This document shows, piece by piece, positions 34,592-55,866 of a stretch of DNA of 64,000 nucleotides (position 1 is the first letter of the stretch; the number at the start of each line of letters is the position of its first letter). This DNA is from Diphasiastrum complanatum. Its lineage: Eukaryota; Streptophyta; Lycopodiopsida; Lycopodiales; Lycopodiaceae. The stretch is taken from the NCBI GenBank assembly GCA_029204225.1, contig CM055099.1, positions 56,567,512-56,631,511 of the forward strand, given 5' to 3'. The translations under genes were made by a program, and so were the position numbers. The notes beneath the pieces are model-generated. The model was not told the origin of the DNA, searched no databases, and saw only the letters and a list, made by a program, of their open reading frames with translations.

Positions 34592-34603
34592 TGGTATCAG
34601 AGC
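34592..34603 (+). promoter_or_regulatory. Primer-binding site, initiator tRNA-Met (older copia)
   Basis: TGGTATCAGAGC immediately after the LTR end. Confidence 0.88.
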
Positions 34604-34727
34604 TAAGTAAGAGAGTGATCATTGAATCATAAATCTTGTATAGATCATTGGCAAAATTTGTTTTTGGCCAATACTGGTGAGGGCGAGTTCTTCTAGAGTG
34701 ATAGCTTGTAATCATTTGGATCAAAAC

Positions 34728-35569
34728 TGTTGAAAATTGTCACTTCTCACTTGACATTGGTTCATGTAAATATTGATCAAACATTAGAATATGTTGATGA
34801 TCTAATTTCACACGTGTGGAGCTTGTTCCCACGTCTGAAAGGATGTATTTTTCATGTTTGTATATATCCAAATTGATTTTGTATCATTCTAGTTAGTGTG
34901 AACATGAAATGACTAGTTTTTAGTCAAGTTGACTAGTCACCTACAAATTAGCTTTTCCTTGCATGTGCATGAGTAAATGCTCCCACATGGCAAGTGGATG
35001 TTCACACGTGTGTATAGAGTACTAGAAGATAAGAGTTGACCATTTTCCTTAGATCCTATTTTGTAGGGAATAAGCTTTTTGGATTTTAGTCATATTCTAG
35101 AAGGTCAACTACTGGATAAGGATCAAGGATGGATCAAATGGATAGATCTGAGTGATGTGGCACTCTTCACACGTGTGAAAGCCTGCTGGACTGTACCAGA
35201 CTCATGGATGTACTTGATCCATAAAAGGATCATCATTTTGCTAAGAAGATTAATGAGACTTTTGCACTCTACACTTTTATGAGATTTCTAGTCATTTGTC
35301 TTGTGATTTTTATGTATGATTGCTATCTAGTATCATTGTACTTGTTGTTTTAGGTGCAGGCCGTACAGTGGACAGTACTCCACACGTGTGAGGCCGCTCT
35401 CACTAAAAAATGATGTCTTGATCCGTTGCTCTTGCTTAAATCCAAGTGTAGTGAATCTAGATCAAGATCTAATGTGTAGAACTTGATAGATTCATTGATT
35501 AAGCAACCAATAACTCTCTATGATTGTAAAGTAAAATCATTATTGTCCTAAAAACCGTAAAATTTATCA
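34728..35569 (+). repeat. 5' LTR of younger copia (842 bp)
   Basis: TGTTGAAAATTGTC...AATTTATCA. It holds four perfect copies of the palindrome CACACGTGTG (34809, 35003, 35168, 35381). Confidence 0.9.
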
Positions 35570-35581
35570 TGGTATCAGAGC
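35570..35581 (+). promoter_or_regulatory. Primer-binding site, initiator tRNA-Met (younger copia)
   Basis: TGGTATCAGAGC immediately after the LTR CA end. Confidence 0.9.
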
Positions 35582-36164
35582 TAAGTAAGAGAGTGATCAT
35601 TGAATCATAAATCTTGTAAAGATCATTGGCAAAATTTGTTTTTGGCCAATACTAGTGAGGGCGAGTTCTTCTAGAGTGATAGCTTGTAATCATTTGGATC
35701 AAAACGACTTGGAGGCTGTGTATGTACTTTTAACACGTGTGAAATCATACAGCAATTTTCAATTCAAGCTACTTTGTGTTTGTTGGTCCCAAAATCACAA
35801 TACTAGTTCATTTTTGGTGCTTTTTGAAGCATAGTATTGATTGAGATTCATTCTAGCTAATGCCTATGACCAAATAGTGTTTTGGATCATTGAAGCATTT
35901 CTTTTTAGAGTCTAAGATCAGATCTTAGAGGCTGATTGGTTGAGATCCTTAGTTGAAGTGAAATTTCTAAGAAAATTTGTAAAGCAATTTTTTTTGTGAG
36001 AGTGAAAGCTAGGAATTTTTGGTAAGATCTTTGAGTATCATTCAAGCTTGTGTGCTAGTTTGATAGAGACAAGCCTATAGGCATTCTACTAAGCTTTAGG
36101 CCTTTTCATAGATCTTTTAAAATTCAAAAATCATTGTGATTTTTAAAAGAGCATTCATTCTAAA

Positions 36165-36938
36165 ATGTCATCCATGGGTGGATATTTGATGGAATCAAGT
36201 GAGAGACTCACTTCCACAAATTATTCCATTTGGAAAGTGAGAATGGAATCACTCCTAGTGATCCATGATCTATATGACATAGTTCAAGGAGTAGAGGAAG
36301 AGCCTCAAACTCCCCAAGAACAAGCCAAATACAAGAAGAGAGCAAGATTAGCTCTACATTGCATAAAGTTAAATGTATGCAATGACCTCTTGAAAGAGGT
36401 GTCTTCTTGTACCTCATCCAAAGAGGCTTGGGATTCATTAAAGAGCATTTATGAATCCAACAATACTTCAAGAATCCTCATGCTAAGAAATCAAGTTTTC
36501 CAAAGCATGAAAGGAAGTGGAGAGAGTGGACAAGAGTATGTCCTTAGGATCAAATCTCTTAACAAGGAGTTAAGTGCAATAGGAGAGAAGATCCAAGATC
36601 AAGAACTAGTACAAATCATCTTGAATGGTCTAGGTGATGAGTTCACCAACTTAGTCCAATCATTTGCCATTCCAGACTCTCTTCCATCCATTGAAAAGTT
36701 GCACAATGTTCTTGTGGCCGAGGAGAGTAGGCTTCTACACCTCAAGACAAGAATGGATAGCATGTCACTTAATGGAGGAGAGGAGAAAGCTAACTTTACA
36801 TCTAAAGGCAAGAAGAAGCAAAATTCATTCAAGAAAAATCAAGGCAAGGAGGCCGAGATGAAGAATGGAGGATCTACCTCCAAAGGCAAAGTGAAGAACA
36901 AGGCAAAACTAAAGTGTTTCTTTTGTGGAAAGAAATGA
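36165..36938 (+). CDS. Copia Gag, 257 codons, closed by UGA inside the zinc knuckle
   Basis: MSSMGGYLMESSERLTSTNY, SIWKVRMESLLVIHDLYDIV and the UBN2-type helical region (ALHCIKLNVCNDLLKEV, LVQIILNGLGDEFTNLVQSF) run uninterrupted into a Lys-rich linker. The knuckle reads CFFCGKK, then UGA (36936-36938) where Gly is expected, then HFASEC in the same frame. Capsid/nucleocapsid role inferred from family. The same UGA is in the older copy at 41879-41881. It may be an inherited nonsense mutation or a read-through site that limits Pol; the sequence cannot tell. The start matches the homologous gag in the older copy. Confidence 0.85.
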   Translation: MSSMGGYLMESSERLTSTNYSIWKVRMESLLVIHDLYDIVQGVEEEPQTPQEQAKYKKRARLALHCIKLNVCNDLLKEVSSCTSSKEAWDSLKSIYESNNTSRILMLRNQVFQSMKGSGESGQEYVLRIKSLNKELSAIGEKIQDQELVQIILNGLGDEFTNLVQSFAIPDSLPSIEKLHNVLVAEESRLLHLKTRMDSMSLNGGEEKANFTSKGKKKQNSFKKNQGKEAEMKNGGSTSKGKVKNKAKLKCFFCGKK

Positions 36939-39671
36939 CACTTTGCCTCAGAATGCTACTTGAAGAAGAATCAACAAGTCAAAGGAGATCAAGGGAACAT
37001 TGCTCAAGAGGAAGAAGATGAGGATGCATTCAACACATCCTTAATGGTTGCATCTACACCAACTTCAAGTCAAGACACATGGTGGATAGATAGTGGGGCT
37101 AGTTCTCACGTGTCCTTTAACAAGCATTATTTTTCTACTCTTCTATCTTGTAATGACTCTAAGAAGTCAATATACACTGCTAGTGATCAAGCATGCAAGA
37201 TAGATGGCATAGGATCTATACCTCTTTGCTTAGGCACATCTAAAAGGATAGATCTAGATAATGTTTTGTATGTTCCTACCATTTCAAGAAACTTGCTTAT
37301 TGTAGGACAATTAATGGACAATGGACTAGATGTACATTTCAAGAATGGAGTTTGTTCCATCTTGAAAAATGATAAGTGCATAGCTAGTGGCATTAAGCAA
37401 GGTAGACTTTTCAAGTTGGATGCTAATGTTGCAAGTGAAAGTGTGAACTTGGCTAGGGAGGAGCTAAGTCAAGTGGAGCTTTGGCATAAGAGATTAGGCC
37501 ATCCTAATCTTCAATCTATGGAGTCAATGGCAAGCAAGGAACTAGCTCTCGGCGTACCAAGAGGTTTCAAGAAGTGTGGAAAGATGTGTGAGGCATGTGG
37601 CCTTGCAAAGTCACACAAGTCTTCTTACAAGAGATCTTCAACAAGATCTCTCTCTCCCTTGGATCTCATACATTCTGATGTACATAGTTATTCACATGCA
37701 AGTAATGGAGGTGCCTTGATGTATGTAACTTTTATAGATGATTGTACTAAATTCACATGGATTGAGTTACTATCAAAGAAAAGTCTTGTTTATGAAGCTT
37801 TCATTAAGTTCAAGTCTCTAGTAGAGAAACAACTTAGTACTTCTATCAAAGCACTAAGATGTGATAATGGAGGAGAGTACACCTCCAATAAAATGAAAGA
37901 CTTTTGTGAGATCAATGGTATTAAGTTACAATACACTTGTTCCTACACCCCTCAACAAAATGGGGTGGCCGAGAGAAAAAATAGGAGTCTATGTGAGTGT
38001 GCAAAGTCCTTGAGGCTTGATGCATCACTTTCCATCTCATTTTGGGGAGAAGCCATAACATGTGCTAATAAGGCCAAGCCCTCAAGGCTTACCTATGTGG
38101 ACAAGGGAAAGCAAAAGGAAGGCTCTACATCTTCTACCTCTTACTCTTTTTTAGCTACATTGCTTGAAGAACCATCATCTTTTGAAGAAGCATATAAATC
38201 TAAAGTTTGGAGAGATGCAATGCAAGTAGAGTATGATGCATTAGAAGAGGATCATACTTGGAATCTTGTAAATCTTCCAAGAGGAAAGAAACCACTTGCA
38301 TGTAAGTGGATTTATATAATTAAGTACAATCAAGATGGATCTATTAGTAAGTACAAAGCTAGGCTTGTTGCTAAGGGATTTCTTCAAATAAAAGGATTGG
38401 ATTATGAAGAAACATTTGCACCTGTAGCTAAGCTTGTAACTATTAGATTAATCATTTCCATTGCTACTTTGTTCAAATGGGATCTCTACCAAATGGATGT
38501 GACAAATGCCTTCTTGAATGGCTTCTTAGAAGAGGAAATCTAAATGATGCAACGCGAGGGCTTCATCAAGGTTGGTGAGGAGCAAAAGGTGTGCTACTTA
38601 AGGAAGAGCCTATATGGCTTGAAGCAAGCACCTAGAGCTTGGTACTCTAGGTTGCATGATTTTCTCTATTCCCTTGGCTTTGTACTAAGTGCTTATGAAC
38701 CTTCTTTATATTTCAAATGTAATGAAGGAAAGATCATCATTTTGGTTCTTTATGTTGATGACATCATTATGACAGGAAATGATGATGATGGCATAGGCAA
38801 AGTAAAAGTTGATTTATCTAGTGAGTTCAAGATGGTAGATCTAGGCTTCCTAAAGTTTATACTTGGGATAGAAGTGTCTAGAAGTAGCAATTGTACTTTC
38901 ATAAGTCAATCTAAGTATTCTACTTCCATTCTTGAAAGATTTGGTATGAAAGATTGTAAGGGGATTGACACCCCTATGGAGCATGTTGTGAAAGCAACTA
39001 ATGAAGGTGATGAAACATCCTTTGAGGACATCACCCTCTTTAGGAAGCTTATAGGCTCTCTGATCTATTTAACCATCACTAGACCTGACTTAAGTTTTTG
39101 TGTAAGCAAGTTGAGTCAAAGTATGCAAGCTCCTTTAGTTCATCATTGGAAAAGTGCCAAGAGAGTACTTAGATATGTTTCTAGTACTAGATTTTTTGGC
39201 ATACTTTATGAAGGATGTAACTTGCACTTGAGAGCCTACTCGGATTCAGATTTTGCAGGTGACAAGATGGATAGGAAGTCCATTAGTGCATTTGCAACAT
39301 TTCTTTGTGGAGGAGTGATATCTTGGCTTTCCAAAAAGCAAGATACAATCTCACTATCTTCTTGTGAAGCCGAGTACAAGGCATTGACTTCAACAAACAA
39401 AGAGCTCCTATGGCTAAGAAGACTCTTGATGGAACTACATGTGCTAGAGGCCGAGGAGATCCCTTACATATTTTGTGACAATCAAGCTTCTCAACAAATT
39501 GCTTCAAATCCTATCTTCCATGCTAGAACAAAGCATATTGAGATAGCTCACCACTTTGTGAGTGAGAAGGTACAATCCAAGGAAGTGCAACTACATCATG
39601 TACCATCATCCGAATGCATAGCTGATATCTTAACCAAATCATTTGTTCAAATATCCATTTTTTTAAGTTAA
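36939..39671 (+). pseudogene. Copia Pol: protease, integrase, RT, RNase H
   Basis: Same frame as Gag. Protease WWIDSGASSHVSF (about 37081-37119). Integrase HHCC at LWHKRLGHPN (about 37480) and CEACGLAKSH (about 37590). Core acidic residues in IHSDVHSY, RCDNGGEYT and NGVAERKNR (about 37670-37980). The integrase C-terminus is deleted: GEAITCANK (38068) jumps to AKPSRLTY. RT has YEETFAPVAKL, QMDVTNAFLNG, a TAA at 38541-38543 where the older copy has Tyr (TAC), SLYGLKQAPRAWY and an intact YVDD (about 38752). RNase H has SDSDFAGD, SSCEAEYKAL and FCDNQAS. The C-terminus is frameshifted (TKSFVQISIFLS). Not able to make a full Pol. Confidence 0.9.
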
Positions 39672-39734
39672 GATATGCTCTTGGAATTGTACATAGATGT
39701 ACACTAGATTTGCCAAGTTAGAAGTGAGGAGGAG

Positions 39735-40647
39735 TGTTGAAAATTGTCACTTCTCACTTGACATTGGTTCATGTAAATATTGATCAAACATTAGAATATG
39801 TTGATGATCTGATTTCATACGTGTGGAGCCTGTTCCCACGTGTGAAAGGATGTACTTTTCATGTTTGTATATATCCAAATTGATTTTGTATCATTCTAGT
39901 TAGTGTGAACATGAAATGACTAGTTTTTAGTCAAGTTGACTAGTCACCTACAAATTAGCTTTTCCTTGCATGTGCATGAGTAAATGCTCCCACATGGCAA
40001 GTGGATGTTCACAAGTGTGTATAGAGTACTAGAAGATAAGAGTTGACCATTTTCCTTAGATCCTATTTTGTAGGGAATATTCCTATATTCTAGGAGACTA
40101 GCTTTTTGGATTTTGGTCATATTCTAGAAGGTCAACTATTGGATAAGGATCAAGGATGGATCAAATGGATAGATCTGAGTGATGTGGCACTCTTCACATG
40201 TGTGAAGGCCTGCTGGACTGTACCAGACTCATGGATGTACTTGATCCATAAAAGGATCATCATTTTGCTAAGAAGATTGATGAGACTTTTGCACTCTACA
40301 CTTTTGTGAGATTTCTAGTCATTTGTCTTGTGATTTTTATATATGATTGCTATCTAGTATTATTGTACTTGTTGTTTTAGGTGCAGGCCGTACAGTGGAC
40401 AGTACTCCACACGTGTGAGGCCGCTCTCACTAAAAAATGATGTCTTGATCCGTTGCTCTTGCTTAAATCCAAGTGTAGTGAATCTAGGTCAAGATCTAAT
40501 GTGTAAAACTTGATAGATTCATTGATTAAGCAACCAATAACTCTCTATGATTGTAAACTTGAAGATTCAGACTGTATCCTATTCGATAAGCAAGATCCAA
40601 TCACTTTGGAACAATCATTATTGTCCTAAAAACTGTAAAATTTATCA
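39735..40647 (+). repeat. 3' LTR of younger copia (913 bp)
   Basis: TGTTGAAAATTGTC...TTTATCA. Compared with 34728-35569 it has a ~57-bp insert near 40560-40612 and ~21 bases that the 5' LTR lacks (near 40080). Three of the four CACACGTGTG palindromes are mutated here. Confidence 0.88.
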
Positions 40648-41107
40648 AAAATGACTTGGAGGCTGTGTATGTATGGTTTCACACGTGTGAACCGTACAAC
40701 AACTTTCACTTCAAGTTACTTTGTGTTTGTTGGTCCCAAAATCACAATACTTGTTCATTTTTTGTGCTTTTTGAAGCATAGTATTGGTCTTGATTCATTC
40801 TAGCTAATGCCTATGACCAAATAGTGTGTTGGATCATTGAAGCATTTGTTTTTAGAGTCTAAGATCAGATCTTGGAGGCTGATTTGTTTAGATCCTTAGT
40901 TGAAGTGAAATCTCTAAGAAAAGTATAAAGCAATTTTTTTTATGAGAGTGAAGGCTAGGAATTTTTGGCAAGATCTTTGTGTATCATTCAAGCTTGTGTG
41001 CTAGTTTGATAGAGACAAGCCTATAGGCATTCTACTAAGCTTTAGGCCTTTCATAGATCTTTTAAAATTCAAAAATCTTTGTGATTTTAAAAAGCATTCA
41101 TTCTAAA

Positions 41108-41881
41108 ATGTCATCCATGGGTGGATATTTGATGGAATCAAGTGAGAGACTCGCTTCTAAAAATTATTCCATTTGGAAAGTGAGAATGGAATCACTCTTA
41201 GTGATCCATGATCTATATGACATAGTTCAAGGAGTAGAGGAAGAGCCTCAAACTCCCCAAGAACAAGCCAAATACAAGAAGAGAGCAAGATTAGCTCTAC
41301 ATTGCGTAAAGTTAAATGTATGCAATGACCTCTTGAAAGATGTGTCTTCTTGTACCTCATCCAAAGAGGCTTGGGATTTATTAAAGAGCATTTATGAATC
41401 CAACAATACTTCAAGAATCCTCATGCTAAGAAATCAAGTTTTCCAAAGCATGAAAGGAAGTGGAGAGAGTGGACAAGAGTATGTCCTTAGGATCAAATCT
41501 CTTAACAAGGAGTTAAGTGCAATAGGAGAGAAGATCCAAGATCAAGAGCTAGTACTAATCATCTTGAATGGTCTAGGTGATGAGTTCACCAACTTAGTCC
41601 AATCATTTGCCATTCAAGACACTCTTACATCCAGTGAAAAGTTACATAATGTTCTTGGGTCCGAGGAGAGTAGGCTTCTACACCTGAAGACAAGAATGGA
41701 TAGCATGTCACTTAATGGAGGAGAGGAGAAAGCTAACTTTACATCTAAAGGCAAGAAGAAGAAACTTCCATTCAAGAAAAATCAAGGCAAGGAGGCCAAT
41801 ATGAAGAATGGAGGATCTACCTCCAAAGGCAAGGTGAAGAACAAGGCAAAACTAAAGTGTTTCTTTTGTGGAAAGAAGTGA
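41108..41881 (+). CDS. Copia Gag of older copy, closed by UGA at the same knuckle codon
   Basis: MSSMGGYLMESSERLAS at 41108 matches the younger copy's start; an in-frame ATG at 41081 also exists. It differs from the younger Gag by scattered substitutions only. The knuckle reads CFFCGKK, UGA (41879-41881), HFPSEC. The codon before the stop is AAG here and AAA in the younger copy; the following codon is CAC in both. Confidence 0.83.
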   Translation: MSSMGGYLMESSERLASKNYSIWKVRMESLLVIHDLYDIVQGVEEEPQTPQEQAKYKKRARLALHCVKLNVCNDLLKDVSSCTSSKEAWDLLKSIYESNNTSRILMLRNQVFQSMKGSGESGQEYVLRIKSLNKELSAIGEKIQDQELVLIILNGLGDEFTNLVQSFAIQDTLTSSEKLHNVLGSEESRLLHLKTRMDSMSLNGGEEKANFTSKGKKKKLPFKKNQGKEANMKNGGSTSKGKVKNKAKLKCFFCGKK

Positions 41882-42754
41882 CACTTTCCCTCGGAATGCT
41901 ACTTGCAGAAGAATCAACAAGCCAAAGGAGATCAAGGGAACATTACCCAAGAGGAAGAAGAAGAGGATGGATTCAACACATCCTTAATGGTTGCATCTAC
42001 ACCAACTTCAAGTCAAGACACATGGTGGATAGATAGTGGGGCTAGTTCCCACGTGTCCTTTAACAAGCATTATTTTTCTACTCTTCTATCTTGTAATGAC
42101 TCTAAGAAGTCAATATACACTGCTAGTGATCAAGCATGCAAGATAGATGGCATAGGATCTATACCTCTTTGCTTAGGCACATCTAAAAGGATAGATCTAG
42201 ATAATGTTTTGTATGTTCCTAACATTTCAAGAAACTTGCTTAGTGTAGGACAATTAATGGACAATGCACTAGATATACATTTGAAGAATGGAGTTTGTTC
42301 CATCTTGAAAAATGATAAGTGTATAGCTAGTGGCATTAAGCAAGATAGACTTTCCAAGTTGGATGCTAATGTTGCAAGTGAAAGTGTGAACTTGGCTAGG
42401 GAGGAGCTAAATCAAGTGGAGCTTTGGCATAAGATTGATGCATCACTTCCCATCTCATTTTGGGGAGAAGCTATAACATGTGCTAATTATTTGTGTAATA
42501 GACTTCCTAGTAGTGCTATAGATGGGATCTCACCTTATCAAGCCTTATTTGATAAGAAACCCAATGTAAAAGATTTTAAGATCTTTGGATGTATTTGTTA
42601 TATTCACATCCCTTTGGAGACTATAAGGAAAGCAGACGCTACCTCCTTCAAAAGGATCTTTGTTGGCTATGGAGAAAATAACAAGGGATATAGGATATAT
42701 GATCCTATATCCAAGAAAGTAAAGGTAAGCAAGGATGTACTTTTTGTTGAATTT

Positions 42755-43545
42755 CACACGTGTGGACTGTCCACAACATGTACTTGTGATCTCCTGAGGT
42801 GTGTAGATGCACCAAGATCAGGACTAGATTGAGATTCAAGATCTATCTTTGATTCTATGGCAAAAACACACTACTACATGCATTCAATCACTTCCAACTC
42901 TCACTCACACGTGTGAGAAGTGTTCCAAAAGTATTCTAAGTAAAAACAAGTTGCTCTCCTCGGGTACAGAGAGAAAAACCATCATGAGCTCTCGGGTAGA
43001 GAGAGAGAAAGCTAGAAATTCAATGACACTCAAAATCCACTCAATCTCAAAATCAATTAGATCCAAATGAGGAGTACAATGATACTAGTAGATCCACGAG
43101 CCACCACTATGTTTAACTATGATTGGATCACACTTTTTCACCTCTTAATTCTATTGGACCATTGATCCATGCACCTCTTAATTCTATTGGACTATATTTA
43201 AGTACACCTCAAATTCCTATTGGACCACACATGGTTCCACCTCTAAGTCCTATTGGAACTCTTAAACTTCATCAAACAAAAGCATTACACTTGTCTACAC
43301 TCTAATTGGCACAAGTTTGGCCTCCTACTCTATTTTGGCTCAATAGTGGCATTACAAGTGGAAATGGATAATTTGCCATCTATGCCAAATTTGACCCTAT
43401 CAACATCCTACACCTAGATGCTTGACTATGAAATTCTATGATACCCCTATATCAAACATTTTGATTTACTTTACAATTCTCCACACGTGGCAACATCCTC
43501 CACACATGTGAGATTCACTTACAAACTTCTATCATAAAAAATATC
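42755..43545 (-). repeat. LTR-like insertion inside the older copia Pol
   Basis: Non-coding insert with resemblance to the LTR at 47708-48413 (same orientation): a CACGTGTG start, GAGGTGT, then CTCGGGTAGAGAGAG and CAAAATC blocks in the same order. It contains a 33-bp tandem repeat at 43139-43270. The exact ends are unclear. Confidence 0.55.
43139..43270 (+). repeat. 33-bp tandem repeat, 4 copies
   Basis: CACCTCTTAATTCTATTGGAC and variants at 43139, 43172, 43205 and 43237. The period is a multiple of three and one frame reads PLNSIGP / PQIPIGP / PLSPIGT, so it may be a relic of a coding repeat. Confidence 0.75.
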
Positions 43546-45407
43546 AAGTTGGATTTTTGCCAATTTCTCACACTTTTTGATGAGTCACAATTTGCTAAGA
43601 GCTTTTCAAATGGATCTAACCCATTGTGCATTGAAGATCTTGACAAATCCAAAGAGGATCTTGACAAACCCGAGGAGGATCATGACAAACCTGAGGATGG
43701 AGATATGGATCTGAGTCAAAAGGGGTCGAGAAGATCATCAAGGAACAAGGCCGAGCCCTCAAGGCTCACCTATGTGGACAAGGGAAAGCAAAAGGAAGAC
43801 TCTACACCTTCTACCTCTTACTCCTTCTTAGCTACATTGCTTGAAGAACCATCATCTTTTGAAGAATCATATAAATCTAAAGTTTGGAGAGATGCAATGC
43901 AAGTAGAGTATGATGCATTAGAAGAAAATCATACCTGGAATCTTGTAAATCTTCCAAGAGAGAAGAAACTACTTGCATGTAAGTGGATTTATAGAATAAA
44001 GTACAATCAAGATGGATCTATTAGTAAGTACAAAGCTAGGCTTGTTGCTAAGGGATTTCTTCAAATAAAAGCATTGGATTATGAAGAAACATTTGCAACT
44101 GTAGCTAAGCTTGTAACTATTAGATTAATCATTTGCATTGCTACTTTGTTCAAGTGGGATCTCTACCAAATGGATGTGACAAATGCCTTCTTGAATGGCT
44201 TCTCAGAAGAGGAAATCTACATGATGCAACCCGAGGGCTTCATCAAGGTTGGTGAGGAGCAAAAGGTGTGCTACTTAAGGAAGAGCCTATATGGCTTGAA
44301 GCAAGCACCTAGAGCTTGGTACTCTAGGTTGCATGATTTTCTCTATTCCCTTGGCTTTGTACTAAGTGCTATGAACCTTCTTTATATTTCAAATGTAATG
44401 AAGGAAAGATCATCATTTTGGTTCTTTATGTTGATGGCATCATTATGATAGGAAATGATGATGATGGCATAGGCAAAGTAAAAGTTGATTTATCTAGTGA
44501 GTTCAAGATGGTAGATCTAGGCTTCCTAAAGTTTATACTTGGGATAGAAGTGTCTAGAAGTAGCAATTGTACTTTCATAAGTCAATCTAAGTATGCTACT
44601 TCCATTCTTGAAAGATTTGGTATGAAAGATTGTAAGGGGATTGACACCCCTATGGAGCATGTTGTGAAAGCAACTAATGAAGGTGATGAAGCATCCTTTG
44701 AGGACATCACCCTCTTTAGGAAGCTTATAGGCTCTCTAATCTATTTGACCATAACTAGACCTGACTTAAGTTTTTGTGTAAGCAAATTGAGTCAAAGTAT
44801 GCAAGCTCCTTTAGTTCATCATTGGAAAAGTGCCAAGAGAGTACTTAGATATGTTTCTAGTACTAGATTTTTTAGCATACTTTATGAAGGATCTAACTTG
44901 CACTTGAGAGCCTACTTGGATTCAGATTTTGCAGGTGACAAGATGGATAGGAAGTCCATTAGTGCATTTGCAACATTTCTTTGTGGAGGAGTGATATCTT
45001 GGCTTTCCAAAAAGCAAGATGCAATCTCACTATCTTCTTGTGAAGCCGAGTACAAGGCATTGACTTCAACAACCAAAGAGTTCTTATGGCTAAGAAGACT
45101 CTTGATGGAACTACATGTGCTAGAGGCCGAGGAGATCCCTTACATATTTTGTGACAATCAAGCTTCTCAACAAATTGCTTCAAATCCTATCTTCCATGTT
45201 AGAACAAAGCATATTGAGATAGCTCACCACTTTGTGAGGGAGAAGGTACAATCCAAGGAGGTGCAACTACATCATGTACCATCATCTGAATGCATAGCTG
45301 ATATCTTAACCAAGCCATTGTCCAAAGATCCATTTTTAAGTTAAGATATGCTCTTGGAATTGTAGATAGATGTACAATAGATTTGCCAAGTTAGAAGTGA
45401 GGAGGAG

Positions 45408-47184: not shown

Positions 47185-47328
47185 TGTTAGAAATCCATAA
47201 ATCATAACATGAATAGACAGACTAGGATTCGAACCCAGGACCTCTTTCGTACTTGATGGGATGCTCTACCACTGAGCTATATGCCCTGTTTGATAGTTCT
47301 CTCTAGAGTGTGGGTTGATATTCCAACA
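47185..47328 (-). repeat. TRIM LTR, 3' copy
   Basis: 144 bp, preceded on its strand by the purine tract TTGAGGGGGGG. About 90% identical to the 5' copy, differing mostly in the tRNA-like part. Confidence 0.85.
47215..47286 (-). tRNA. tRNA-like sequence inside TRIM LTR (3' copy)
   Basis: 72 nt, same position in the other LTR. D arm GCTC-AGTGGTA-GAGC, A box TAGCTCAGTGG and B box GGTTCGAATCC are intact. The acceptor stem (GGGCATA) no longer pairs well and the anticodon loop (TCAAGTA) differs from the other copy, so only the promoter-like parts look conserved. Confidence 0.55.
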
Positions 47329-47432
47329 CCCCCCCTCAAGCCACACTTGGTTGGGGTCCTAGATGTCACCTGTCCCACAACTTGGGCCACCTAACCATGG
47401 CTTTGACACCATGAACTGTTAGGTCTAACTTG

Positions 47433-47444
47433 GCTCTGATACCA
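47433..47444 (-). promoter_or_regulatory. Primer-binding site, initiator tRNA-Met (TRIM)
   Basis: TGGTATCAGAGC on the minus strand immediately after the LTR end TCTAACA; continues CAAGTTAGACC. Confidence 0.85.
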
Positions 47445-47588
47445 TGTTAGAAATCCATAAATCATAATATGGATGGACAGACTAGGATTTGAACCCAAGA
47501 CCTCCCTCATACCGAATGGGATGCTCTGCCACTGAGCTATCCACCCTGTTTGATAGTTCTCTCTAGAGTGTGGGTTGATATTCCAACA
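47445..47588 (-). repeat. TRIM LTR, 5' copy
   Basis: 144 bp, flanked on both sides by TRIM internal domains: PBS on its 3' side, and the purine tract of the next unit on its 5' side. Confidence 0.85.
47475..47546 (-). tRNA. tRNA-like sequence inside TRIM LTR (5' copy)
   Basis: 72 nt. The acceptor arms GGGTGGA / TCTGTCC can pair at all 7 positions with G-U pairs. D arm GCTC-AGTGGCA-GAGC is perfect; T arm TTGGG-TTCAAAT-CCTAG pairs with wobbles. A box TAGCTCAGTGG and B box GGTTCAAATCC fit the Pol III consensus fully. The anticodon stem (TCCCA/TGAGG) has one mismatch; the loop TTCGGTA would give CGG (Pro), but I would not treat it as a working tRNA. Confidence 0.65.
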
Positions 47589-47707
47589 CCCCCCCTCAAG
47601 CTACACTTGGTTGGGGTCCTAGCTGTCACCTGCTGCCTCAAAACTTGGGCCACCTAACCATGGCTTTGACACCATGAACTGTTAGGTCTAACTTGGCTCT
47701 GATACCA
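47589..47707 (-). repeat. Second TRIM internal domain, joined to a copia LTR
   Basis: 119 bp, near-identical to 47329-47444, with PBS at 47707-47696 and G7 tract at 47595-47589. Upstream on its strand is not a TRIM LTR but the end (CTTCACA) of the 706-bp copia LTR at 47708-48413. Confidence 0.8.
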
Positions 47708-48413: not shown

Positions 48414-48764
48414 CTCCTCCTTAAAATATATGTTTCTATCCAACGTAGACTTTGAAAATAGGCCAAGGTTAGACCTCATCTTGATAAAAACATTCTTGAG
48501 CAATGGCTTGGTGAGAAGATCTACAACACAATTTGAAGATCCAACATGCTCCAATGAGATCTCTCTCTCAATAACTTTTTCTTTTACAAAATGATGAGCT
48601 ACCTCAATGTGTTTGCTCCTTGCATGGAACACAGGATTGTTTGCAAGAGCCTGAGCCGAGATGTTATCATTCTTGATAATTAGAAGGTCTTCATCTCCAT
48701 AACACTTTAGCTCCAAGACTAGCCTTTTGATCCATAAAACTTCCTTTAATAGCACTAGGATCAT
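48402..48764 (-). pseudogene. Copia RNase H C-terminal part
   Basis: KEVLWIKRLVLELKCYGDED, then KNDNISAQALANNPVFHARSK (His-Ala-Arg block), HIEVAHHFVKEKV, and the end VVDLLTKPLLKN. This is the C-terminal RNase H and tail of copia Pol. It is out of frame with integrase at the deletion point near 48740; the RNase H N-terminus is lost with RT. Confidence 0.86.
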
Positions 48765-50250
48765 CCTTCTTCCTAGTCTCTAAAGGTACATGCACATAGC
48801 ATAAATAGCCAAAGATCCTAAGATGATCTACCTTAGGCTTTTTCTTATACAACATCTCAAATGGTGTTCTTCCTTCTATTGCAAGATTAGGAAGTCTATT
48901 ACAAAGATAATTTGCACATGCAATTGCTTCTCCCCAAAAACTTTTAGGTAGAGATGCTTCTAGCCTAAGGGCTTTTGCACATTCACACAAAGTTCTATTT
49001 TTTCTTTTAGCAACTCCATTTTGCTGAGGAGTATAAGAACAAGAAAATTCTCTTTGCATTTTTTCTTTCTCACAAAAGTCTTTAAACTTCTTAGAGGTAT
49101 ATTCACCTCCACTATCACTTCTCAAAGCTTTCAACTTGAAAGAAAATTGTTTTTCTACATAAGCTTTGAAAGTAAGGAAAACATCATAAACCATGGCTTT
49201 AGAAAATAGCATGTAGATCCAAGAATATCTTGTATAATCATCTACAAAAGAAACAAAGCAATTTGCTCCTCCTTTGCTTTTGGTTGAAGAGAAATGAACG
49301 TCAGAGTGCACGAGTTCAAATGGATGTTGTGTTTTGATGCTTGATCTTGGAAAAAGTCTTCTATGTGATTTTGCCACAACACAAGCTTCACAAGGTTGAA
49401 GCCCCTTTGACAGTGTCTTTGGTAGTCCAACAGCTTTTCCTTCCTTGACCATAGATTGCATGGCTTTGAAATTGGGATGTCCCAATCTTTTATGCCACAA
49501 ATCCTCCTGATGAACCTTGGTCTCATAAGCATTATCTGAAATGTTAGCGCTCTCCCTTGAATCTAGTTTGTACAACTTTCCAATCCTAGATCCTCTAGCA
49601 ACCACTTCATTTTCTCTTGAGATTATACATTTGTCAACACTAAATTTGACATCCAATCCACTATCAAACAATTGTCCTACACTAATGAGATTCTTGGTTA
49701 GTCTAGGTACATAAAGTACATCATGCAAACAAAAAGATTTTGATGATGATGCATGCAGTGGAATACTTCCTATTCCTTCAGTTCTACACTCTACGTCATT
49801 AGTGGTATAGATTGATCTTTTTTCACCTAGATATGGCATGAGACTTGTGAAAGAGTTTCTAGAACTAGACATATGGGAACTAGCCCCACTATCTATCCAC
49901 CAGATTTTTTCATTCTTGAAAGGAAAAGATGAAAAACTAGACATCATTAAAGAATCAACTCTTTCACTACCCTCACACTCTTCCTCATTAGTAAGGTTAG
50001 CTTGCTTGGATTCGTTCTTCTTCTTGAAACAGTTTGATGCATAGTGGCCCTTCTTGCCACAAAAGAAACATTTGATCTTTGACAGTTTCTTCTTGCCACT
50101 GGATGTTTCAATTTGTGAGGATTGATCCTCACCACTCTCTTTGGCATTGTCATACTCTTCTCTAAGTCCATTAAGGACTACTTGAACAAGTTCAGTGTTC
50201 CTAAGAGCATCAGCAATACCAGCTAATTCTTGATGAAGATCATTTACTCT
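48730..50250 (-). pseudogene. Copia Gag end, protease and integrase
   Basis: Gag end with LVQVVLNGLREEYD and an intact knuckle CFFCGKKGHYASNC (about 50075-50030; Gly codon GGC where the nested family has UGA). From 49947 a 418-codon open frame covers protease WWIDSGASSHMSS (about 49900), LYVPRLTKNLISVGQLFDSG, pre-integrase LWHKRLGHPNF (about 49495), CEACVVAKSH, then the core with VHSDVHFS, RSDSGGEYT (Asn to Ser) and NGVAKRKNR, where the catalytic Glu is Lys. Integrase ends at YVHVPLETRKKDDPSAIK and runs into the deletion. Inactive by the lost Glu and lost RT. Confidence 0.88.
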
Positions 50251-51061: not shown

Positions 51062-51715
51062 GCTACGCCAATTTTTCAGTTTGCAGCATGTTTGTTGGAT
51101 GGTTAGCTTGCATTATGCATCTTGTCGTGGCATTAATAGTGTTAATGTCGCGAACGATCTTGTGCTTGCTCCAAGCATTGATTTCTAAGCGAGTTTTGGA
51201 GGTGATTTCATAGAGGAGGCTTCTAACATTCAAAGAGAGGGAAAATCAGAGATTTGGAGACACTTCAAGGCTGTTCGAAGGTGTAGAGAACACCTCCTAA
51301 AGTGATTTAGATTCAGTCCTTGATTTATGCATCAAATTAGATCAAATTTTCATCAATTTTGATCAATTTTTGCTTGTGATTGGATAGTAGATTGTGTTGC
51401 ATCCTCATTAAGTTCCATTTAGATCTTTTGCAAGTGGTTTTGGAAGGATATTAGGTTGTTAAAATTCACTCTTGATCAGATCATTTGGAAGCTTTTATGT
51501 TCTTTATAGAAAGAGGGGCAATTCTACTAGTATTGTCTACTTCAGTCAAGCAAGTGCATTGTTTCTAGAATTCTATGATTTGATTTTGTTAAAGATCATT
51601 CTTAGATTTTTATAGGAAGCCTTTTCAGGTCCCTAAGAAGTGGGATAAGGTAGATCGTCAATCAAAGCAATAGAAGTAATCTTCATTTGTGTCAAGTCCT
51701 TGATTAGGAGAATAG

Positions 51716-55640: not shown

Positions 55641-55866
55641 ACCTAAATTTAAAAAACAACACCTAAATCTAAAATACATCACCTATATTCAGAATGCAAC
55701 ACCTAAATCTAAATGCAACACTTAAATCTAGAATGATAATCTAAATCCAAAATGCAACACCTAAATCTAGCATGTAGCACCTAAATCTAGAATGATCACC
55801 TGAATCTAGAATGAAACACCTAAATCTAGAATGATCACCTATGCAGCACCTAAATCTAGAATGTCC
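55641..55866 (-). repeat. 20-bp minisatellite in gypsy leader, ~12 copies
   Basis: On the plus strand, repeats of ACCTAAATCTAGAATGCAAC with 19-20 bp spacing and one 11-bp partial unit. It lies ~35 bp inside the element from its PBS. Confidence 0.85.

Follow-up and report, generated by a model that had tools for sequence, protein, structure and literature searches.

A probable Helenus-type TRIM with a tRNA-like segment in its LTRs, joined to a Copia LTR in Diphasiastrum complanatum

Analysis of a 64-kb stretch of Diphasiastrum complanatum DNA (the window) revealed a miniature LTR element next to a larger Copia element, both on the minus strand. In minus-strand order, the locus consists of the Copia 3' LTR (706 bp, 48413-47708), an internal part of the miniature element (119 bp, 47707-47589), its 5' LTR (144 bp, 47588-47445), a second stretch of internal sequence (116 bp, 47444-47329) and its 3' LTR (144 bp, 47328-47185). 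The two 144-bp LTRs start with TGTTGG and end with AACA. The 116-bp internal part between them begins with TGGTATCAGAGCC, which contains the primer binding site (PBS) TGGTATCAGAGC immediately 3' of the LTR (47433..47444), and ends with a G7 polypurine tract (PPT) immediately 5' of the 3' LTR (47329..47335); we take the PBS to correspond to a Met-type tRNA primer. With 144 + 116 + 144 bp, this unit of two LTRs stays below 1000 bp. The Copia LTR starts with TGTGAAGATTAG, ends with ACTTCACA and is preceded by a purine-rich tract, and a partial Copia coding frame of 519 codons, stop to stop, lies upstream of it (48691..50250, minus strand).

Each of the 144-bp LTRs contains a tRNA-like segment. 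The segment in the 5' LTR (47474..47546, minus strand) matched Rfam RF00005 with 43.0 bits and was modeled by ARAGORN as tRNA-Thr(ggt), while the segment in the 3' LTR (47214..47286, minus strand) reached 41.1 bits and was not called by ARAGORN. This pair represented the sole Rfam matches at gathering threshold across the 64 kb; a 5S rRNA sequence, the feature of Cassandra elements, was not found at gathering score in the window. By eye, the acceptor stem pairs at 7/7 positions, with wobbles, in the 5' segment and at 6/7 positions in the 3' segment. The original prediction, made from this DNA alone, had described the two repeats, the PBS, the G7 tract, the 116-bp internal part and, in each LTR, a tRNA-like sequence with Pol III boxes, fully paired in the acceptor stem of one copy, and all of this was confirmed. 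Its anatomy was nevertheless incomplete, as the other internal part (47589..47707), which abuts the Copia 3' LTR, and the copies elsewhere in the genome had been overlooked. A short imperfect tandem repeat with a period of about 39 bp and half units of 19-20 was also observed in the window (55655-55830).

The D. complanatum assembly (1.74 Gb) was searched with the 523-bp stretch covering the TRIM sequence (47185-47707), and 84 matches were obtained among 40 scored of 1242 candidates. A pattern for the PPT-LTR junction of this family, hereafter family A (29 letters, at most 3 mismatches), gave 472 + 477 = 949 matches and its reversed control none, so the family is not a product of chance. We annotated 79 loci, of which 39 were taken from the tandem query, a sample that favours arrays, and 40 from around 46 listed places of the junction pattern, a sample without array bias. 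All 46 listed places were one mismatch away from the pattern, so the LTR start is well kept in that sample. The 40 junction-sampled loci comprised 25 two-ended copies and 15 truncated, chimeric or odd ones. A plain LTR-internal-LTR structure was present in 22 of the 25 two-ended copies, and their 5-bp target site duplications (TSDs) were exact in 14, with one mismatch in eight, two in one and three in two; by our arithmetic, about 0.02 exact duplications would be expected by chance in 25 copies. The LTRs of 21 plain elements diverged by a median of 3.5%. Among the tandem-query loci, arrays carried 3-6 LTRs. In the window and the annotated loci alike, TGGTATCAGAGCC follows the LTR and G7 precedes it at the internal borders.

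Some of the annotated loci are not independent. Common flanks identify L062/L080/L081, L086/L087 and L095-L097 as segmental duplicates. Locus L047 (G000 C8:68806000-68808900), 12 Mb away on the window's contig, contains a 100% identical 523-bp copy, including the 119-bp internal part, and the sequence flanking it upstream is also the same, which indicates either a recent segmental duplication or sequence duplicated in the assembly. In L086 (about 790-1240) and L087 a head-to-head TRIM was observed, in which an antisense LTR, an internal part and a sense LTR lie between inverted foreign PBS sequences; this arrangement resembles a fold-back reverse-transcription product. Three further loci (L124, L125 and L126) contain short fragments similar to the RuBisCO large subunit, which may represent plastid insertions into nuclear contigs.

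The end of the Copia 3' LTR abuts the TRIM PBS exactly (47708/47707). The 119-bp internal part turns the window copy into PBS-internal-LTR-internal-LTR, and since it is joined at its PBS to the Copia LTR, the copy in the window is a composite of Copia and TRIM rather than a plain element. Most of the Copia frame is 90-93% identical to two other copies, and the final 600 bases of the Copia LTR recur very often across the genome (3959 first-look candidates). Joins were also found elsewhere: a similar one in L035/L036, where the TRIM is joined to a related sequence (83% identical), and others in L010/L017 and L014-L016, where different sequences ending in CA precede the TRIM PBS. These composites fit strand transfer or recombination at the shared PBS between RNAs that would have been packaged together; in the window, a first TRIM unit and the Copia 3' LTR may have been reverse transcribed jointly or recombined at the PBS. 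A TSD followed by TG was not detected for the composite within bases 1-1400 of L047, the duplicate locus, nor by the same test on L010, L014, L016, L017, L035 and L036. The heptamer CAAGTCC at window position 51693 was rejected as a composite TSD, as about 0.5 chance occurrences are expected per 9 kb and the Copia LTR starts differently. Elsewhere in the window (34592-45344), Copia-like frames occupy two neighbouring stretches that are related to each other, 36147-39671 and 41066-45344, together with Met-type PBS sequences at 34592 and 35570.

A second tRNA-bearing TRIM family (B) was observed in L019 (1330-1680, minus strand), where by eye a family-A element sits within one LTR of the family-B TRIM, and copies were present in L119-L123. 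The family-B search gave 43 matches among 40 scored of 681 candidates. One copy read end to end has an LTR of 153 bp, an internal part of 73 bp and a PBS identical to that of family A. At five loci besides L118, a 5-bp match between the flanks was found in four, representing three distinct insertions (L119, L120 = L121 and L123), and was absent in L122. When the LTRs of both families were aligned, the sole match with a low E-value covered positions 18-115 of A at 78% identity, with U5 outside. The best conserved part is the tRNA-like core, which is 85% identical and begins 42 nt from the LTR start in A and 53 nt in B. Common to both internal parts are the 14 nt of the PBS, 15 nt close to the PPT (87%) and 19 nt resembling a PBS (A 34-52, 89%), with hardly anything besides; given these common stretches, the two families may simply be close relatives. 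The PBS-like stretch of A, TGGTGTCAAAGCCATGGTT (window 47411-47393, minus strand), is degenerate and matches the start of the family-B internal part (E 4e-4, pairwise test), looking as though an older PBS may once have been there.

The tRNA-like core was analyzed in 146 LTR rows, made up of 145 distinct copies and the reference from the window, which is likewise included in the 90 internal rows. The A box TAGCTCAGTGG was exact in 112 of the 146 rows and contains the TRGCY and YGG by which Helenus elements are recognized; the B box GGTTCRAATCC, with the GGTTC used for the same purpose, was found in 104. Twelve family loci scanned with RF00005 gave 31 matches. For comparison with host tRNA genes, 32 of the 63 places on the RF00005 list of the genome were fetched, 30 of which had ARAGORN tRNA models (24 distinct sequences). 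Two places on the list turned out to be family-B LTRs and not host tRNA genes. The best alignment of the cores to the 30 tRNA places scored 22.5 for A (best of 200 shuffles, 9.5) and 19.0 for B (shuffles, 7.5), with identities to the sampled genes of at most 74% and 70%, respectively. The seven top scores for A, to Arg, Thr and Cys tRNAs, lay within 1.5 points of each other, and the top score for B was to Thr-GGT. At 9 of the 60 columns in which A and B agree, their letter occurs in at most 10% of the 24 distinct tRNA sequences sampled, which suggests a single origin of the tRNA-like module.

Both families contain short motifs upstream of the core. Among the 145 distinct family-A LTRs, CAA was present within -10 to -1 of the tRNA start in 139 and ATAT or TATA within -41 to -24 in 142, and in the single family-B LTR inspected, CACAAAT and CTATAG occupy the corresponding stretches. 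In flowering-plant tRNA genes, a CAA at most 10 nt upstream is usually the start site, as shown in Arabidopsis; according to the same report, 36-45% of genes have such a CAA and 22-32% a TATA motif within 50 nt upstream (PMC11700998). Seen against these figures, the presence of the motifs in family A is suggestive only, and with two related families they could have arisen by chance. TTTT was rare on the sense strand (8 of the 146 LTR rows and 2 of the 90 internal ones), which would allow Pol III to read through; at such length this rarity is not striking.

Conservation within family A was assessed in the 145 distinct LTRs by a permutation test stratified into four site classes (CpG, CHG, other C/G and A/T); the search pattern biases variability at LTR positions 1-22. 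Variability in the boxes was not clearly lower than in the remainder of the tRNA-like part (P = 0.39) or of LTR positions 30-144 (P = 0.24). Comparing the whole tRNA-like part with the flanking LTR gave P = 0.07 when stratified, while raw variability was higher in the tRNA-like part (0.035 vs 0.020); positions 30-42 against the remaining LTR gave P = 0.13. Stem pairing did not exceed that of column shuffles, of which 172/500 reached the observed value for the acceptor, 109/500 for the anticodon, and 500/500 for both the D and the T stem. The original prediction had asked whether boxes and acceptor pairing are conserved above the rest of the LTR; no such excess was observed within the family, but the test has low power, as the copies are young and probably accumulated neutral mutations after insertion. 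The comparison between A and B is better evidence of constraint, with the reservation that the two may be close relatives. Among the 79 annotated loci we found no LTR in which the tRNA-like part was missing and target duplications surrounded the gap, as the original prediction had envisaged for a SINE captured by one LTR. In L065 and L076, U3 joins U5 and the core is entirely or mostly gone, in one LTR of each element only; these look like later deletions, and SINE capture, for which no LTR in the 79 loci showed a clean empty site, was rejected.

Could tRNA genes or tRNA-derived sequences account for the element in another way? That tandem tRNA genes or SINEs mimic an LTR element is suggested by the tRNA calls of both ARAGORN and Rfam, but whole elements are flanked by the exact TSDs described above (14/25), the PBS and G tract lie exactly at the borders, and the LTR segments scored 30.5-53.1 bits (12 loci) against 51.4-75.2 bits for the 30 tRNA places, making this explanation extremely improbable. 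Hardly more probable is a working tRNA, by which the element would spread tRNA genes. From 107 sequences, some of them overlapping in part, ARAGORN returned 200 models, all within family A- or B-like LTRs, and 134 of these models are Thr(ggt); the other 66, however, are Pro, Ile, unresolved or have further anticodons, the anticodon stem of family A contains an A-A pair and shows no constraint on pairing, and nearly all Rfam scores lie below those of host tRNA genes.

A more serious alternative is an ordinary Pol II TRIM whose LTR holds an old tRNA-derived passenger, e.g., a SINE insertion, without a role as promoter. The lack of excess conservation of boxes and stems within family A agrees with this, as does a survey of plant TRIMs that reports 5S sequence in Cassandra alone (PMC4717578); other plant TRIM families spread without that module, so a Pol III-type module is dispensable. 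A passenger should, however, decay no more slowly than the sequence around it, and the core is kept between A and B while U5 is unmatched and the internal parts match in stretches of 14-19 nt only. The CAA and TATA-like motifs ahead of the core in both families and the conservation of the boxes reported across Helenus families (Kojima, 2024; PMC10886601) also argue against a passenger, which we consider rather unlikely.

We favor a tRNA-like core that acts as promoter. LTR elements are propagated by transcription from the LTR, tRNA priming at the PBS, strand transfers, PPT priming and integrase. In the TRIM, Pol III would bind the A and B boxes of the 5' LTR, recruited with the help of the TATA-like and CAA motifs in U3, and transcription would start near LTR position 37-43 and read through the element, mostly without a T4 stop. 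Larger retrotransposons probably supply the machinery that copies the element, and the chimeras, the PBS and the TSD length point to Copia as the mobilizing partner: Copia particles would package the RNA, a Met tRNA would prime it at the PBS, and Copia enzymes would reverse transcribe and integrate it. As U3 is rebuilt ahead of the tRNA-like part in each cycle, each new copy would possess both the upstream motifs and the boxes. Tentatively, the LTR might thus be viewed as a portable and complete plant tRNA-gene promoter, with start motifs in U3 and boxes in the core, rebuilt by reverse transcription, the core persisting as a module as U5 and most internal sequence are replaced and ends are exchanged with Copia at the shared Met PBS.

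The LTR-PBS-internal-PPT-LTR structure, the 5-bp TSDs, the many dispersed copies, the short arrays and the tRNA-like LTR core make family A very probably a non-autonomous LTR retrotransposon, a TRIM, of the Helenus kind, for which we infer the Pol III and Copia steps. Helenus comprises TRIMs with tRNA-derived sequence in the LTR and has been described from fungi, animals and a single plant, Selaginella moellendorffii; transcription by Pol III (TRIMp3) is unproven for the published members too (Kojima, 2024; PMC10886601). In the literature searched, we found no further paper on Helenus or related TRIMp3 elements. A TRIM with a tRNA segment in its LTR and its parallel to Cassandra had been correctly recognized in the original prediction; the novelty claimed for it falls, since the same kind was published in 2024, and family A is an additional plant Helenus. 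At least two tRNA-bearing TRIM families are hereby added to plant Helenus, represented by one species in the description of 2024 (PMC10886601). The copy number, the short arrays and the Copia composite joined at the PBS provide a usable case for questions on Pol III and the Copia partner, and TRIM LTRs can inflate the number of tRNA genes counted in genomes of this sort.

As described by Kojima (2024; PMC10886601), Helenus resembles family A in a size below 1 kb, a tRNA-derived segment in both LTRs, a PBS and PPT, 5-bp TSDs (in plant and fungal members) and tandem arrays (cf. LTR-11_DR). Helenus-1_SMo, compared here by its published dimensions, has an LTR of 120 and an internal part of 85, close to the size of family A. 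Cassandra shares a Pol III-type internal promoter module in the LTR, the PBS TGGTATCAGAGC and tandem arrays in its published description (PMC7215508), but its LTR contains 5S rRNA sequence and that of family A a tRNA-like one. Wukong and other tandem TRIMs are likewise small and form arrays of at least three LTRs, with a 5-bp TSD in Wukong (PMC4528315, PMC4717578); however, no tRNA segment appears in the description of Wukong (PMC4528315), and for the other tandem TRIMs the word tRNA is absent from the main text of PMC4717578. tRNA-headed SINEs have tRNA-derived A and B boxes as well, but, following Kojima (2024; PMC10886601), they lack LTRs, a PBS and an integrase-type TSD and are moved by non-LTR machinery.
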